Assembly (NCBI GenBank): GCA_009789175.1
Contig: CP046866.1
Coordinates: forward strand, 2,418,001-2,482,000
From: Salinibaculum litoreum
Lineage (GTDB): Archaea > Halobacteriota > Halobacteria > Halobacteriales > Haloarculaceae
Length of the DNA: 64,000 nt
Reading direction: 5' to 3'
Part shown: in pieces, positions 10,938 through 54,907 of the stretch
Numbering within the stretch: position 1 is the stretch's first letter
Layout of the letters: each line of letters begins with the position of its first letter
The notes under the pieces: generated by a model
The model's database searches: none
What the model was told of the DNA's origin: nothing
Seen by the model: only the letters and a program-made list of their open reading frames with translations
Program-made: the position numbers and the translations under genes

Positions 10938-11294
10938 CTAGGCCTGTGAGACGATTTCTTCGAGGTCCGCCCGGCGGCTCTCGTCGGTGGCGAGCTTTCG
11001 GGCAGTCCATTCGAGTTCCGAGAGCAGTGCCTCGTAGCCCTCCTCGGTGAGTTCGTACTCGTTGGTCCGCTTGTCGAGTTCGCTTTTCTCGATGACGCCC
11101 ATCGCGACGAGGTCATCGAGGTTAGGGTAGAGCCGACCGTGGTTCACGTCGGTCCCGTAGTAGTCCTCAAGTTCGCGCTTGATGGCGAGGCCGTAGCGGG
11201 ATTCCTCTGCGAGAATCGTGAGGATAGTCTGTTGAAATGCGGTAAGCTCCGGAGTCACATCCGGCGACTGTGTCTGGCTTTGTGCCTCTGACAT
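10938..11294 (-). CDS. PadR-family winged-helix transcriptional regulator
   Basis: 118 residues. TAFQQTILTILAEESRYGLAIKRELEDYY followed by VNHGRLYPNLDDLVAMGVIEKSE is the PadR winged helix (recognition helix GRLYPNLD), and the C-terminal helix is for dimerisation. The haloarchaeal oxidative-stress regulator RosR belongs to this family, but orthology cannot be judged here. I chose the start at MSEAQ (11294); it sits about 27 nt from GGTATAGG on the minus strand. It is divergent from hisS, and an inverted repeat surrounds its promoter. Confidence 0.82.
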   Translation of the reverse strand: MSEAQSQTQSPDVTPELTAFQQTILTILAEESRYGLAIKRELEDYYGTDVNHGRLYPNLDDLVAMGVIEKSELDKRTNEYELTEEGYEALLSELEWTARKLATDESRRADLEEIVSQA

Positions 11295-47703: not shown

Positions 47704-48966
47704 ATGGCGTCGTTGCCCGTGGAGATTCTGCTCGGCATCTATCTGGGGCTGCTGGTAGGGATGGTCCCGGCGCTGGTCTCCTGGGCACTCGGGTTTGCGT
47801 TCAAATACGTCACCGACGTGACGATTCCCGGCTTCGGTGTGGTGGCACTGGCCATCGCGCTGGCGGGAGTCAACGGCGGGTTGCTCGCGCTGGCCGACCA
47901 GTCCATCACGAGCAATCCCAACGCACCGCGGGTCATCACCGCAATCGTCGTCGTCGGCATGATCTCACTCTACGCCCACAGCAAGGGCGACAAGATGGGG
48001 GCGAGCACGCCCCACCGGCTTTCGTTCTCGAATCTCCGGAAGCGAACGATTTCGAAAGACCTCGCGGACCTCATCGGCGGCGGCGACGAGGTCCGGATTC
48101 GCGTCGTCGGCGAGGTGGCCGACATGGAAGGGTATCCGCCGCTGCCCGAGGAACTGCGGGCGAGATTGCGGAGTGCCGAACTCACCTTCCCGGCGGACGT
48201 TCCCATCGACGAACTGGAAGCGCGGATGGCCGACCGCCTGCGCACCGAGTACGACCTCGGCGACGTGTCGGTCACCATCGACGAGGGCGGGCGGGCAACA
48301 GTGGTCGCGGCCCCACCGTTCTCGGGGCTCTCAAAGCGGATTACCGACGGCCGCCACGCCGTCTCGGTCAGCGGACTCATCCCGACGGGGCTGGCCCGCG
48401 GGGACGAAGTGACGGTCATCACGGCCAACGCACAGGTCAGGGGGACCGTCGTCAGCGCCAACTCCGGCACAAGCGAGAGCGAGGAGCCGGATATCGAACC
48501 CCGAATGACCGACGAACCGGCGGAAGACGACGAAGAGGAGACGCCGAAACCGGTCCGGGCACCGACCACCAGCGGCGGGGAGGGCCGGCTGACGGTGGCC
48601 GTCACCCGGACGGACGTACAGCCGCTGTTGCGGGCCGACCAGGCGAAGGTGGTCGTCGAGTCCCGTGGCACCCGCCGGGAGTACGAGGTCATCTCCCTGC
48701 TCCGGCGGGCGGACAAGCGTTTCCGCCGGTTCACGGTGCGGGCCGGGAGCAAACTCGCCGGCCACACCGTCGGGTCCGCACGCCTGCAGGAAGCGTACGG
48801 AGTGGCCGTGCTGGCGGTCAGGAAAACCGACGGCTGGACCATCGCACCACAGGGCGACACCACGCTGGCCGAGGGCGACGAACTGTTCGCGGTCGGCACT
48901 CGCGGAGACCTGGAGGAGTTCGCCGGGTCGACGACAGCCGAGCGGGTTCCAGGGGGTGACGACTGA
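47704..48966 (+). CDS. Membrane protein with RCK_C (TrkA-C) domain
   Basis: 420 residues. Three N-terminal helices, a cytoplasmic region of about 200 residues of unknown fold, an acidic linker (around residues 255-285), and a C-terminal RCK_C domain (RRFTVRAGSKLAGHTVGSARLQ ... IAPQGDTTLAEGDELFAVG). No pore motif. Overlaps the next gene by TGATG, so both are co-translated and may form a complex. CATTTACTG lies 27 nt upstream. It is divergent from the potassium channel gene. Confidence 0.78.
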   Translation: MASLPVEILLGIYLGLLVGMVPALVSWALGFAFKYVTDVTIPGFGVVALAIALAGVNGGLLALADQSITSNPNAPRVITAIVVVGMISLYAHSKGDKMGASTPHRLSFSNLRKRTISKDLADLIGGGDEVRIRVVGEVADMEGYPPLPEELRARLRSAELTFPADVPIDELEARMADRLRTEYDLGDVSVTIDEGGRATVVAAPPFSGLSKRITDGRHAVSVSGLIPTGLARGDEVTVITANAQVRGTVVSANSGTSESEEPDIEPRMTDEPAEDDEEETPKPVRAPTTSGGEGRLTVAVTRTDVQPLLRADQAKVVVESRGTRREYEVISLLRRADKRFRRFTVRAGSKLAGHTVGSARLQEAYGVAVLAVRKTDGWTIAPQGDTTLAEGDELFAVGTRGDLEEFAGSTTAERVPGGDD

Positions 48967-51233
48967 TGGTCGTCCTCCAGTCGCTTATCGGGCGCGTGAC
49001 CGGGCTGGTCGCACAGCTCGTCGGTCTGGGGATTTTCGCCGCCGTACTGGCAGCCGCGGCGGCCGTCGTCCACCGCTGGTACGTCCGGGAGGGGATTGCT
49101 CGCGCGCTCGCCCTCCTGGTCGGGTTGAGCGGCGTCGCCGTCTACCTCAACACGACGACGGCACTCGGGACGGTCATCGCCGGGTCCAGTGCGCCGACGG
49201 AGACACAGGTCGCGCTGTTCAACATCAGCGCCTTCATCGTCGGAGCCGGCGGCGCGTTGCTCGGCCGGACCGTCGGCGACCGCTTCGGGACCGACGTACT
49301 GCTGGGGGAGGGCTTTGCCGACATGGAGGCGGACGTGGGCCGTCTCGTCCAGTCGGTCGGCCGGGTGGTCGTCGTCGAACTCCCGACCGAAATCGACGAT
49401 ACCGTCGGCTACGACCCGGTTGCAGCCGAAACGAAGGAGGAACTGGCGGGCAAGCGGTTCGTCTTCCCCCGCCGGCTCACCATCGGTGAGTTGCGCGAAC
49501 GGCTCGTCACCCGGCTGAAAGCCGACTACGGCGTCGGCCACGTCGATGTCGAACTCGACGACGACGGCACCGTCGAGTACCTCGCCCTCGGGAGCCGTGC
49601 GGCAGGCATCGGGCCGACGCTGCCGCCGGCGACGAACGCCGTCGTCATCCGCGCCGACCCCGCTTTCGCCGCCAGCGCCGGCGACCTGGTACAGGTCTGG
49701 GAGACCGACCCCATGCGGCGGGTACTCACCGCGGAGTTGCGCGGCGTATCCGAGGACACTGTGACCATCGCCATCGACGCCGCGGACACCCAGAAAGTCG
49801 ACCCGACGCGGGAGTACCGGCTGGTGACCCTTCCCGTCGAGGACCGCCCGGACCGGGAGTTCGCCTCGCTGTTGCGGGCGGCCGAGGAGACGTTCAGTTC
49901 CGTCACCGTCGAGGCCGGCAGCCCGCTGCATGGCATGCCGGTCGGGGCGCTGGATTTCACCGTGGTCGCGCTCAAGCCGGAGGGGGAACAGCCCCGTGCC
50001 ATCCCGGACCGGACGACCGTACTCGCACCGGGTGACGTGGTCTTCGCTATCGCCCGGCCCGAACACCTGCGCCGGCTGGAGGCGGCCGCCCGGCCGCTTG
50101 ACCCCTCGCTGGTCAGCAGCCCCGCCCCACAGCAAAGCCCCCAGCCGGCTACCGGCGACACGACCGCAGACGACGCCTCCGACAGCGACCAGACGACCGA
50201 CCAGTCCGGCGACGACCAGCCCAGTCCTGCCCAGGAACCGGCGGCTGACCCCACAGCCGACGAGACGGAGATGCCCGACGAGACAGAAGTGCCGCCAGCG
50301 GAGGCAGCGACCGGGGCAGAGACCCCCGAGGACGACGCAGAGCCCGAAAGTGCGCCGCTTGCCGGCGACAGCGACGGGACGGACAGCGAAGGGTCGGCGA
50401 CACCGGACCCGGACGACACGGACGACGCGGAGCCGGCCAGTGCCGCGGCAGACGACGGCGAGGACGCGGACGACGGACAAAGCGGTGGAGTCGGGTCCTC
50501 CTCGTTCCAGCAACTCAAAGCGGAGTTCGAGTCCGGCGACGCCGACTGGGCCGAGGAGGACGAGCGCCCGCCGAGCGAGGACGAGTCGGCGACTGCCGAT
50601 GCGACGGCGGACGCGGACAGCGAGGGTGCCGCGTTCGAGGGCAACGGCGTGGACACGCTGGATGTGGGGGACGAAGACACGGGGGATGGCCCCGATGAGC
50701 TGGACAGCGACGAAGACATCGACGGCCTGGCACTGGAGGACGACACCGAAACGGGGAGTGACACTGTCGAGACGGACAGTGGCGGACTCGATAGCGGCGT
50801 CGGGTTGGAAGATGCGAGTTTCGGGGACGAGGACGACAGCGAGCCCGAAGCGGACAGCGACGACGGGTTAGCCGGTCTGGATTTCGACGACGATGACGAC
50901 GATGGGCTAGATGAGTTGAGTTTCGACGACGATGAGGACGACGGGGGCGACGACCTATCCAGTCTGAGTTTCGACGACGATGACACGGAAGAGGGGTTCT
51001 CGCTGGACGAGGACGACGATGCAGAGGGCGAGACAGGGGAGAAAAGCGATGGCGACAGCGACGACGACGCGGAGGACAAAAGCAATAGCGACGACGATGA
51101 GGACGACGACGGCGGCGGGGGCGGCGGTGCAGCGTCGTTCCAGCAACTCAAAGAGGAGTTCGAGTCCGGCGACGCCGACTGGGAGGACGATATCTCAGAC
51201 AGCCCGGGCGGGGACATGCGACTGGACGAGTAG
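48966..51233 (+). CDS. Membrane RCK_C protein with long acidic tail
   Basis: 755 residues. N-terminal membrane part (about three helices), a cytosolic region, an RCK_C domain ending near residue 375 (SVTVEAGSPLHGMPVGALDF ... VLAPGDVVFAIA), then about 370 residues of extremely Asp/Glu-rich, probably disordered sequence. The tail holds two copies of a 17-residue motif, SFQQLKxEFESGDADWx, at about residue 513 and at the C-terminus. Translationally coupled to the preceding RCK_C gene. The motif might dock a common partner. Confidence 0.75.
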   Translation: MVVLQSLIGRVTGLVAQLVGLGIFAAVLAAAAAVVHRWYVREGIARALALLVGLSGVAVYLNTTTALGTVIAGSSAPTETQVALFNISAFIVGAGGALLGRTVGDRFGTDVLLGEGFADMEADVGRLVQSVGRVVVVELPTEIDDTVGYDPVAAETKEELAGKRFVFPRRLTIGELRERLVTRLKADYGVGHVDVELDDDGTVEYLALGSRAAGIGPTLPPATNAVVIRADPAFAASAGDLVQVWETDPMRRVLTAELRGVSEDTVTIAIDAADTQKVDPTREYRLVTLPVEDRPDREFASLLRAAEETFSSVTVEAGSPLHGMPVGALDFTVVALKPEGEQPRAIPDRTTVLAPGDVVFAIARPEHLRRLEAAARPLDPSLVSSPAPQQSPQPATGDTTADDASDSDQTTDQSGDDQPSPAQEPAADPTADETEMPDETEVPPAEAATGAETPEDDAEPESAPLAGDSDGTDSEGSATPDPDDTDDAEPASAAADDGEDADDGQSGGVGSSSFQQLKAEFESGDADWAEEDERPPSEDESATADATADADSEGAAFEGNGVDTLDVGDEDTGDGPDELDSDEDIDGLALEDDTETGSDTVETDSGGLDSGVGLEDASFGDEDDSEPEADSDDGLAGLDFDDDDDDGLDELSFDDDEDDGGDDLSSLSFDDDDTEEGFSLDEDDDAEGETGEKSDGDSDDDAEDKSNSDDDEDDDGGGGGGAASFQQLKEEFESGDADWEDDISDSPGGDMRLDE
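50502..50550. repeat. 49-bp coding direct repeat, copy 1
   Basis: Matches 51135-51183 at 48 of 49 bases (C versus A at position 20), encoding the SFQQLK(A/E)EFESGDADW motif. Near-identity at synonymous sites points to recent duplication or conversion. Confidence 0.8.
51135..51183. repeat. 49-bp coding direct repeat, copy 2
   Basis: Second copy of the repeat at 50502-50550, at the C-terminus of the same protein. Confidence 0.8.
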
Positions 51234-51808: not shown

Positions 51809-52171
51809 CTACCGCTCTGGCGGGTCGGACACGTCGACCCACTCGTCGGCCCACGATTCTATCGCGTCGAAGACGGGACACAGCGACTGCCCTTTCGCGG
51901 TCAGCGAGTAGTACGTCGCCACGGGCGCAGCCTCCTCCATGCGCCGGTCCACGAAGTCCAGTTCCTGCAGGTCATCGAGCACCCGCGAGAGCGTACGCGA
52001 ACTCGCACCCGTCGACTCCTTGAGTTCGTTGAACCGCTTTTCTCCCGCCGAAAGGTCGTGTAACACGACCAGCCGCCACTTCGAACCGATCTGCTCCAGC
52101 GAATCGATGACCGCACACGGCCCCTCGTCGGCGACCGTCTCCTGTTCCAGATGCGTCGTCTCCGTAGCCAT
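51809..52171 (-). CDS. HxlR/DUF24-family transcriptional regulator
   Basis: 120 residues. Winged helix: VIDSLEQIGSKWRLVVLHDL, RFNELKESTGASSRTLSRVLDDLQELDFVDR, wing with YYSLTAKGQSL. Cys19 in EGPCAVIDSL sits at the position of the redox-sensing Cys of Bacillus YodB and CatR, regulators of quinone and diamide response. A second Cys (SLCPVF) is in the C-terminal helix. It is divergent from doxX and likely controls that cluster. An inverted repeat overlaps its promoter. Start at ATG 52171. Confidence 0.85.
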   Translation of the reverse strand: MATETTHLEQETVADEGPCAVIDSLEQIGSKWRLVVLHDLSAGEKRFNELKESTGASSRTLSRVLDDLQELDFVDRRMEEAAPVATYYSLTAKGQSLCPVFDAIESWADEWVDVSDPPER

Positions 52172-52206
52172 ACTCGTTATTTCTCTCCCACCATCATCAA
52201 GGTTCG

Positions 52207-52221
52207 TATCCGAACCGGATA
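52207..52221. promoter_or_regulatory. Inverted repeat upstream of the HxlR gene, candidate operator
   Basis: TATCCG-AAC-CGGATA, perfect 6-bp arms, 36-50 nt before the HxlR start. It overlaps GGTTCG-TATC-CGAACC (52201-52216). The position fits auto-regulation by a dimeric regulator. Confidence 0.4.
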
Positions 52222-52308
52222 ACACAACGATACCAGCTGGCAGAGTGTCATGGTGGCATCGCTGTCACCCCACAGCACCGCAGCCACCCGGTAACACTGA
52301 TGTCAGAT

Positions 52309-52324
52309 CACATATATGTATGTG
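52309..52324. promoter_or_regulatory. Palindrome over the TATA box of the doxX leader, candidate operator
   Basis: CACATA-TATG-TATGTG, perfect arms, containing a TATA-like CATATATG whose spacing (about 27-30 nt) points to a transcript start at the leader ORF ATG 52346. A near-identical core (CATACATGTATA) occurs in the promoter of the VOC dioxygenase gene. Confidence 0.5.
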
Positions 52325-52345
52325 GGCGGCCAAGCTACGAGTGCA

Positions 52346-52417
52346 ATGAGTACGAGCCGTGCAGTCGAGGGCGAATCGCTTCACAGTCACCGCGGGGCTA
52401 CGGAGGTGCGTGTCTGA
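52346..52417 (+). CDS. 23-codon leader ORF coupled to doxX
   Basis: ATG 52346 to TGA 52417, 23 residues (MSTSRAVEGESLHSHRGATE... ). The ATG sits where a leaderless transcript from the CATATATG element would begin, and its TGA overlaps the doxX ATG (TGATG). It may serve only to load ribosomes on doxX, or be a regulatory leader peptide. No homologue known to me. Confidence 0.45.
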   Translation: MSTSRAVEGESLHSHRGATEVRV

Positions 52418-52830
52418 TGGTCGAGTCGGGCATCGCCGCGGTTGCCTTACTCGTCGGGCGGGTGCTGTTCGGGGGGCTGCTGGCCGTCCAGGGGTTGAAT
52501 CACTTCACGGGAACTGAGGAGATGGCGGGCTACGCACAGGCGAAGGGGCTGCCCGCGCCGAGGTTTAGCGTCCTCGCCTCGGGCGGGTTGCTCGTCGCCG
52601 GCGGGCTGGCCCTCGTGGTGGGCGTCCTGCCGGGCGTCGCCGCGGGTGCCATTGCGCTTTTCCTCGTCGTCTCGGGAGTCGCGATGCACGACTTCTGGGC
52701 TGTCCCCGAAGACCAGCAGCAAGACGAGATGGTCCAGTTCATGAAAAACATCGAGCTGGCGGGCGCGGCGCTGGTCTTTCTGGCCGTCTCCACGCTTGAG
52801 TGGGGTTACGCGCTGGGTGTCGGACTGTGA
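52417..52830 (+). CDS. DoxX-family membrane protein
   Basis: 137 residues, four helices; GRVLFGGLLAVQGLNHFTG and the MHDFWAVPEDQQQDEMVQFMKNIELAGAAL segment are typical of the DoxX/MhqP/CatD family. In Bacillus, DoxX members sit in the MhqR and CatR regulons that respond to quinones and catechols; the molecular role is likely electron transfer or redox protection at the membrane. Translation is coupled to the leader ORF. Confidence 0.85.
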   Translation: MVESGIAAVALLVGRVLFGGLLAVQGLNHFTGTEEMAGYAQAKGLPAPRFSVLASGGLLVAGGLALVVGVLPGVAAGAIALFLVVSGVAMHDFWAVPEDQQQDEMVQFMKNIELAGAALVFLAVSTLEWGYALGVGL

Positions 52831-52883
52831 TGGGCCACAGACTGATTGGGTACAGGCTCCTAAGAGGGTAGCGTGACCACTCC

Positions 52884-53522
52884 ATGACTGGCCCACACCA
52901 GGACCAACCGCTCGTGACCGCCGGCACCGACCTCGACGAGGCGGCGGCGGCGCTGGTGGCGGTCCACGGCCGCGGCGCAACCGCACAGAGTATCGCCCAG
53001 ACCGGCCTGCAACTCCACCAGCCCGGTCTCGCCGTGCTGGCCCCACAGGCCGCCCGCAACAGGTGGTACCCGCGGTCGTTTCTCGAACCCGTCGAGACGA
53101 ACGAACCCGGGCGCAGTTCGGGCCTGCAGGCCGTCGGCGACGCCATCGAGACGGCCGCGGAGGCGGGGATTCCCGTCGAGAACGTGCTGGTACTTGGCTT
53201 CTCGCAGGGAGGCTGTCTCGCCAGCGAGTACGTCGCCCGCAACCCCCGCCGCTACGGCGGTGCGGTCGCCTTCTCGGGCGGACTCATCGGCGAGACCGTC
53301 ACGGAGAGTGCCTTCGAGGGCGACCTCGACGGGACGCCCTGTTTCCTGGGCTGTTCGGATGTCGACCCCCACATCCCGGAGGAGCGCGTCCACGAGACCG
53401 CCGCCGTCTTCGAGCAACTGGGCGGCGACGTGGAGACCCGCATCTACGAGGGGATGGGCCACGGCGTCAATCAGGACGAACTCGATTACGTGAGCGGGAT
53501 GGTCGAGTCCCTGCTGGACTGA
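52884..53522 (+). CDS. Alpha/beta hydrolase, carboxylesterase/phospholipase (MhqD-like)
   Basis: 212 residues. Catalytic Ser107 in GFSQGG, Asp in GCSDVDPHIP and His in GMGHGVN; oxyanion segment ALVAVHGRGATA. Belongs to the small carboxylesterase/lysophospholipase group that includes B. subtilis MhqD. Lies 53 bp after doxX on the same strand. Confidence 0.85.
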   Translation: MTGPHQDQPLVTAGTDLDEAAAALVAVHGRGATAQSIAQTGLQLHQPGLAVLAPQAARNRWYPRSFLEPVETNEPGRSSGLQAVGDAIETAAEAGIPVENVLVLGFSQGGCLASEYVARNPRRYGGAVAFSGGLIGETVTESAFEGDLDGTPCFLGCSDVDPHIPEERVHETAAVFEQLGGDVETRIYEGMGHGVNQDELDYVSGMVESLLD

Positions 53523-53540
53523 GCAGGGTCCGGCAGACAG

Positions 53541-53978
53541 CTACCCGGCTTCCTGTGCGAACCCGGCAGCGGCCAGCAGCGACAGAAAGAGCAACATGGG
53601 GACGTGGCCGAGAAAGACCAGAAAATACAGTATCGAGAGGTCGATGCGGCCGAAGTAGGAGAGGATGAGTTCCGGGACGGTCCACCACGTCGCGGCCGCC
53701 ACGAGAAAGGAGAGTCCGACCAGAATCGAGAGCCAGTCGGTCGGCGCGAGCAGGAACTGGACGTACCGGTCGACGCCATCCGACCCGTAGACGAGCGCAC
53801 CGAAAAGCGCGATAGCCGCGACAGACAATCCGACGGCCGTGAGCGGGTCGGGCGGAACCGACTCGGTGACCACCCGACGGACCACCTGCCAGTTCAGGGC
53901 GAGATACGGCGGTACCGCTACCAGGAGGTACAGACCGACGAAGACCGCGACTCGCTTCCCCCGCCCCCTGGGGAACAT
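53541..53978 (-). CDS. Membrane protein of unknown function
   Basis: 145 residues, about four helices. Converges with the hydrolase gene. Minus-strand CATATATG at about 54006-54013 lies roughly 30 nt before the start and suggests its own promoter. No family recognised. Confidence 0.6.
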   Translation of the reverse strand: MFPRGRGKRVAVFVGLYLLVAVPPYLALNWQVVRRVVTESVPPDPLTAVGLSVAAIALFGALVYGSDGVDRYVQFLLAPTDWLSILVGLSFLVAAATWWTVPELILSYFGRIDLSILYFLVFLGHVPMLLFLSLLAAAGFAQEAG

Positions 53979-54032
53979 CGTGATAGAACTTTAACACACG
54001 TCGACATATATGCTGCGGGGCAGGCAATCGGG

Positions 54033-54866
54033 TCAGGCCCGGACGATGCGCACTTCGATGCCGTCAGGGTCAGTCACCGCGACACCGTCATCGAGACGGC
54101 GCGTCTCGTGGTCGCTCTCGGAGAGGCGCTGTCGGGCGTCGACCAGCGCCGCGTCGGTCGGCACCACGAGTTCGAACCAGTCGACGCCGCGGCCGGTCGC
54201 CGGGTCCGAGCGGTCGTTCCAGACGTTCAGTCCGATGTGGTGGTGGTAGTCGCCGGCGGCGACGAAGAGGGCACCGTCGAGTTCCTGGCGGACGCCGAGT
54301 CCGAGTGTGTCGACGTAGAATGCGCGGGCGGCCGCGAGGTCGGTCACTTCCAGATGGACGTGGCCGATGTCGCTCCCGTCGGGGACCGTCTCCGCGCCGG
54401 CCGCCTCGTCGCGCAGGTCCCCGAGTGCGAGCGGGAGCGTGTCCATCTGGACGCGCCCGTCGGCGGTCGGCCAGACGCGTTTGGGCTGGTCACAGTAGAT
54501 TTCGACGCCGTTGTCCTCGGGGTCGTGGAGATACAGTGCCTCGCTGACCCGGTGGTTCGAGGCACCGGTCAGACGCCACTCGGCCTCGATGCGTTTCAGC
54601 GCGTCCGCCAGCGCACGCCGGTCCGGAACGCGGACAGCGGTATGGAAGAGGCCGGCCTCGGTGCTGGTCCGGGCCGGTGTTCCGGTGGCTCGCTGTACCA
54701 CGAGCAGCGAGTCGCCGCCGGCACCGAGAACGACGCGGTCAGCCGCCTCCTCGATGGGCGAGAGCCCGACGACAGACTGATAGAAGTCGACGACACCGTC
54801 GAGATTGGCCACGCGAAGCGCCACGCGGCCGACGGCCGTCTCCGGGGGCAACGAATGTGCTGTCAT
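54033..54866 (-). CDS. VOC-family ring-cleaving dioxygenase (CatE/MhqE-like)
   Basis: 277 residues with two glyoxalase/VOC modules. The C-terminal module has the metal set HVHLEV (His), YHHHIGLN (His) and GIEVRI (Glu), as in catechol-2,3-dioxygenases. N-terminal module has AVGRVALRV, FHTAVRV and GVEIYCD. Expected to open catechol or hydroquinone rings with Fe(II). Start ATG 54866. The upstream CATACATGTATA palindrome resembles the doxX promoter element. Confidence 0.82.
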   Translation of the reverse strand: MTAHSLPPETAVGRVALRVANLDGVVDFYQSVVGLSPIEEAADRVVLGAGGDSLLVVQRATGTPARTSTEAGLFHTAVRVPDRRALADALKRIEAEWRLTGASNHRVSEALYLHDPEDNGVEIYCDQPKRVWPTADGRVQMDTLPLALGDLRDEAAGAETVPDGSDIGHVHLEVTDLAAARAFYVDTLGLGVRQELDGALFVAAGDYHHHIGLNVWNDRSDPATGRGVDWFELVVPTDAALVDARQRLSESDHETRRLDDGVAVTDPDGIEVRIVRA

Positions 54867-54886
54867 ACTGGCGATTCGGCAGCCAG

Positions 54887-54907
54887 CAGTATAGGCATAC
54901 ATGTATA
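54887..54907 (-). promoter_or_regulatory. Promoter and candidate operator of the VOC dioxygenase gene
   Basis: Minus-strand TATA-like CCTATACTG (54887-54895) at 21-29 nt before ATG 54866, directly followed upstream by the palindrome ATACATGTAT (54897-54906). The 12-mer CATACATGTATA differs from doxX CATATATGTATG at two positions. Confidence 0.45.

Follow-up and report, generated by a model that had tools for sequence, protein, structure and literature searches.

A conserved haloarchaeal HxlR–DoxX–esterase unit resembling the YodB/CatR and MhqR quinone-response systems

The stretch of Salinibaculum litoreum DNA analysed here (64,000 nucleotides; hereafter the window) carries the gene of an HxlR/DUF24 regulator close to genes for a DoxX-family membrane protein, a small carboxylesterase, a 145-residue membrane protein and a VOC-family protein. 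Since YodB, CatR and MhqR control ring-cleaving dioxygenases, the MhqD esterase and catDE (PMC6798810, PMC6212828), this neighborhood raises the question of whether archaea possess a quinone or catechol defense module of the same kind, as an original prediction from the sequence proposed, and of which genes belong to it. All five predicted genes are present (Table 1). The conserved unit is smaller than the five genes claimed, consisting of hxlR and a divergent doxX–esterase operon (52417–53522, + strand).

Table 1. Features of the locus, numbered from the first letter of the window
Feature	Position	Strand	Remarks
HxlR/DUF24 winged-helix regulator, 120 aa	51809–52171	-	PF01638 74.9 bits (Pfam cut-off 20.8); ATG start taken
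Operator-like inverted repeat GGTTCG-TATC-CGAACC	52201–52216		hxlR–doxX intergenic; 30 nt upstream of hxlR
Putative TATA element of the leader–doxX transcript	52311–52320	+	28 nt before the leader ATG
Leader ORF, 23 codons, MSTSRAVEGESLHSHRGATEVRV	52346–52417	+	stop/doxX start overlap TGATG; GGAGGTG inside
DoxX-family membrane protein, 137 aa	52417–52830	+	PF07681 47.9 bits (Pfam cut-off 23.6)
Phospholipase/carboxylesterase-like alpha/beta hydrolase, 212 aa	52884–53522	+	PF02230 71.6 bits; Ser107-Asp161-His193
Predicted helical membrane protein, 145 aa, doubtful member	53541–53978	-	convergent with the esterase gene
Two-domain VOC extradiol-dioxygenase-like protein, 277 aa, probably a bystander	54033–54866	-	PF00903 60.3 bits

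Conservation of the neighborhood

In a panel of 97 relatives, with genes counted as linked when they lie within 5 kb of one another, HxlR and DoxX are linked in 45 of the 70 genomes that contain both (22 genera; 0.36 expected) and HxlR and the esterase in 19 of 62 (9 genera; 0.27 expected); these expectations assume random gene placement, and the number of genera gives the fairer measure, since relatedness makes the genomes non-independent. The divergent arrangement of HxlR with DoxX and the esterase is confirmed at the locus, with linkage far above expectation; for these three, the conserved co-occurrence proposed as a check of the original prediction is borne out. We also inspected 80 named haloarchaeal loci picked by HxlR similarity, and in 57 of them the regulator is divergent from DoxX, an MhqD-like esterase and/or an MhqO-type dioxygenase. 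The partner sets include DoxX alone (21 loci), dioxygenase with esterase (12), esterase alone (8), DoxX with dioxygenase (4) and all three (3). Haladaptatus is among the relatives that carry the complete module. At the other 23 loci, this search found none of the three enzymes divergent from HxlR. About half of these are the Haloferax loci, all but one of which fall in this group; one of the 23 has a sub-threshold DoxX relative and one a flavin reductase in that place. In the Haloferax loci, for example L054 (8374–8817), the HxlR orthologue lies beside a convergent Rrf2-type regulator rather than DoxX or the esterase. Unlike DoxX and the esterase, the flanking DUF2062 gene is not conserved beside HxlR. 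Elsewhere in the window, a 755-aa protein encoded at 48966–51233 combines a TrkA-C domain with a strongly acidic tail in which the motif SFQQLKxEFESGDADW occurs twice.

The dioxygenase linked to HxlR in relatives, about 310–365 aa in length, is distinct from the VOC protein of the window. Its nearest solved relative is Bacillus subtilis MhqO (PDB 3oaj, E = 2.1e-89), and it also matches the 2,6-dichlorohydroquinone dioxygenase 4huz (E = 1.1e-45). The window operon, composed of doxX and the esterase gene, does not include a ring-cleaving dioxygenase; a single MhqO-type homologue is encoded elsewhere in the genome (C1:1700162–1701151), without the operator.

The VOC gene and the 145-residue membrane protein

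The original prediction placed a VOC dioxygenase with catechol-dioxygenase metal ligands in the module. The gene and its histidine ligands are indeed there, with His169 and His208-210 conserved in 33–34 of 34 orthologues; Glu271, a putative ligand placed at the end of the alignments, is conserved less evenly. The protein scores below the catechol 2,3-dioxygenase equivalog cut-offs, with 50.6 versus 320.2 bits for TIGR03211 and 51 versus 321.4 bits for HpaD. Its adjacency to HxlR is not conserved: the two genes lie within 5 kb of each other in 1 of 41 other genomes (0.17 expected) and within 8 kb at none of the 80 named loci, and the VOC gene is absent from the locus of the sister genome of the same genus. 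It is transcribed towards the doxX–esterase operon, not with it, and the operator repeat was not found in its promoter. Members of the family are common, with 47 strong matches when this genome is counted with the panel, but they are usually unlinked. Given the lack of an operator, of conserved HxlR linkage and of a counterpart at the sister locus, the VOC gene of the window is probably a bystander.

A few VOC genes do have related neighbors. In one other genus (g6) the VOC gene adjoins the esterase gene, and in G069 it adjoins an MhqO-type match. In G012 (L123, C14 5380–6867), a DoxX remnant and the VOC gene that follows it stand divergent from an HxlR paralogue, with a variant operator repeat, and in G068 (L124, C79 4629–5706) a DoxX remnant precedes a CatE-like VOC gene; both remnants are parts of the C-terminal half. 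These cases are more than chance would give and point tentatively to an earlier CatDE-like association, CatD being a DoxX-family protein. They do not place the VOC gene of the window in the HxlR regulon.

The 145-residue membrane protein is likewise present at the locus, and its membership in the module is doubtful, as its homologues are restricted to its own genus and one other (g18) and no operator match occurs in its promoter. In g18, the homologue lies directly upstream of the esterase gene on the same strand in two of three genomes (L119, L120). Pfam returned only a sub-threshold Abhydrolase_9_N match. An AlphaFold2 model from two sequences reached a pLDDT of 49.6, too poor for a fold search.

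Regulator, operator-like repeat and esterase

The best solved relative of the window HxlR is YodB (PDB 5hs7, E = 1.8e-13), and the nearest NCBIfam models are RrpA and RrpB, both below their cut-offs. The protein contains two cysteines, Cys19 and Cys98. As predicted, Cys19 occupies the YodB/CatR sensor position, and it is invariant among all orthologues checked. An equivalent cysteine is also found in 16 of 16 more distant paralogues read, with L182 counted as positive from its sequence. Because all paralogues checked share it, Cys19 is no indicator of quinone sensing, for which it had been put forward; judged from the alignments, it supports membership in HxlR/DUF24 and not quinone specificity. 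Cys98, kept in 83 of 104 orthologues, is the only other cysteine and differs in alignment position from the C-terminal cysteines of YodB, Cys101 and Cys108, so a YodB-like partner is not seen in the window protein. Such a partner is not required in QsrR-type alkylation. At locus L039, a second HxlR copy (11004–11279), 53% identical to the first and 3 kb away from it, lacks the sensor cysteine.

The shared promoter regions of hxlR and its divergent operons contain a conserved inverted repeat, GGTTCG-N4-CGAACC, adjoining the TATA region. Of the 81 hxlR upstream regions, 29 match at least 11 of the 12 core bases, where first-order random sequences would give 0.4, and a first-pass position weight matrix (PWM) built from these 29 places 61 of the 81 above the 99% null. 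An iterated matrix, with 77 of 81 regions, was dropped as likely overfitted, and we used the first pass and the exact core counts. A second dyad, GTNACCNGGTNAC, is present in 16 of 81 regions (0.1 expected). The perfect core at 52201–52216 is the only perfect copy in this genome and by far the best PWM match within the window; a genome scan at one mismatch gave 37 further sites, which we left out of the operator evidence. Related elements also precede dioxygenase-first and esterase-first operons in relatives. In the genomes of several relatives, the TATA element is followed by the repeat and then by the start of the divergent transcript, an order that would suit repression; in the window it lies on the hxlR side. 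The repeat thus appears to join hxlR and the divergent operon as a candidate operator.

The window esterase matches PF02230 (71.6 bits) and PDB 4h0c (E = 2.2e-49), and its Ser107, Asp161 and His193 are invariant across 30 homologues. It belongs to the family of MhqD in the broad sense, yet it falls far below the NCBIfam MhqD equivalog cut-off (17.3 versus 325 bits).

A short leader ORF before doxX

Absent from the earlier claim is a leader ORF before doxX, a new observation. In 26 of 31 HxlR–DoxX loci, the window included, a TATA-like element is followed by an ATG after 26–30 nt, and the spacing falls in this range in 26 of 26 loci where both were found. This is the spacing of a leaderless archaeal transcript, and the doxX mRNA is therefore probably leaderless. 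In 19 of the 31 loci, the ATG opens an ORF of 21–32 codons whose stop codon overlaps the doxX start, usually as TGATG (the window and L034, L037, L039, L043, L048-L051, L053, L070, L071, L080, L087, L090, L092, L108, L110 and L112). In seven others, doxX itself begins at this ATG and is slightly extended. Apart from TEV-like ends, which the GGAGGTG motif encodes, the leader peptides are not conserved, and the likely function therefore lies in their being translated rather than in the peptide. Haloferax volcanii is known to translate gene pairs with overlapping stop and start codons by termination–reinitiation (PMC6728339), and we infer that the leader–doxX overlap of the window works in this way too. 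The locus resembles the H. volcanii pairs in its overlapping codons and Shine–Dalgarno-like motif; it differs in that the upstream partner is an unconserved ORF of 21–32 codons opening a probably leaderless mRNA (PMC6728339).

Discussion

The genes, their conserved linkage, the conserved repeat and the leader ORF can be read directly from the genomes, and we favor, with a probability of about 0.6, the interpretation that they form a haloarchaeal quinone/electrophile detoxification regulon resembling the YodB/CatR and MhqR systems. The predicted defense module is partly supported: it gains from its HxlR–DoxX–esterase core, from the MhqO-type partner of relatives and from the repeat, and loses the VOC gene as a member and the cysteine as evidence. 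The locus would act as a two-transcript electrophile-defense switch. HxlR, bound to inverted repeats of the shared promoter region, would repress both its own gene and the leader–doxX–esterase transcript; a quinone or similar electrophile would modify Cys19 and release HxlR from the DNA, whereupon DoxX and the esterase would be made. The leader ORF would start a leaderless mRNA and pass its ribosomes to doxX by termination–reinitiation. In relatives, the same operon would also supply the MhqO-type ring-cleaving dioxygenase, whose presence there makes a (hydro)quinone, a catechol or their thiol adducts the most likely substrate. The window species, if it uses such an enzyme, would draw it from the separate gene at C1:1700162–1701151.

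Our main competing explanation, which we consider distinctly less probable than the quinone regulon, is that the HxlR module is directed at disulfide or oxidant stress in general (hypochlorite, diamide, peroxide) rather than at quinones. DoxX would then be a redox partner in the membrane and the esterase a hydrolase of broad purpose. The broadly redox character of the regulator's relatives, with RrpA and RrpB as nearest models, is consistent with this, as is the prevalence of DoxX as a partner, often without a ring-cleaving enzyme (21 of 80 loci); the recurring pair of MhqO-type dioxygenase and esterase beside the regulator points instead to aromatic electrophiles.

Two further explanations fare worse. 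That the entire five-gene stretch, the 277-aa VOC protein included, is one catechol/quinone regulon seems improbable: the protein is extradiol-dioxygenase-like, and its relatives follow DoxX remnants in G012, with a divergent HxlR paralogue, and in G068, or lie beside the esterase in one genus, whereas the window gene lacks an operator, is transcribed towards the operon and is missing from the sister locus, and HxlR linkage is confined to 1 of 41 genomes and 0 of 80 loci. We find it very improbable that the module supports growth on an aromatic compound rather than defense. Ring-cleaving dioxygenase and hydrolase families are known from catabolic operons too; against this, the divergent operon has only one to three genes in shuffled combinations, with no constant further pathway genes.

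If the quinone/electrophile regulon is real, most haloarchaeal genera would have a defense regulon open to experiment, for which both an operator and a sensor residue are predicted; the leader ORF would lend itself to examining termination–reinitiation as a means of control. More speculatively, and in our estimate rather unlikely, the locus would combine MhqR-type enzymes under a CatR/YodB-type regulator with leader-ORF translation that sets DoxX output, possibly in response to stress. The literature we searched yielded no archaeal HxlR–DoxX pairing or haloarchaeal precedent; a ring-cleaving dioxygenase appears in an oxidative-stress data set from Haloferax, where no link to HxlR is shown (PMC12482152).

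Like the CatR/YodB–catDE system of B. subtilis, whose operon encodes a catechol dioxygenase (PMC6212828), the haloarchaeal unit pairs a DoxX-family gene with an HxlR/DUF24 regulator, a predicted repressor with an N-terminal cysteine. Unlike that system, the window operon comprises doxX and an esterase gene, the CatE-like VOC gene stands apart without an operator, and the promoter is archaeal and followed by a leader ORF. With the MhqR regulon of B. subtilis and Staphylococcus aureus (mhqNOP, mhqED, mhqRED), many haloarchaeal loci share the pairing of an MhqO-type dioxygenase with an MhqD-like esterase; the regulator is HxlR/DUF24 instead of the MarR-type MhqR, the operator differs and the dioxygenase of the window species lies outside the operon. 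By analogy, the haloarchaeal unit would thus place, in many relatives, enzymes of the MhqR system under a regulator of the YodB/CatR kind, with a functional likeness to both that these resemblances suggest.
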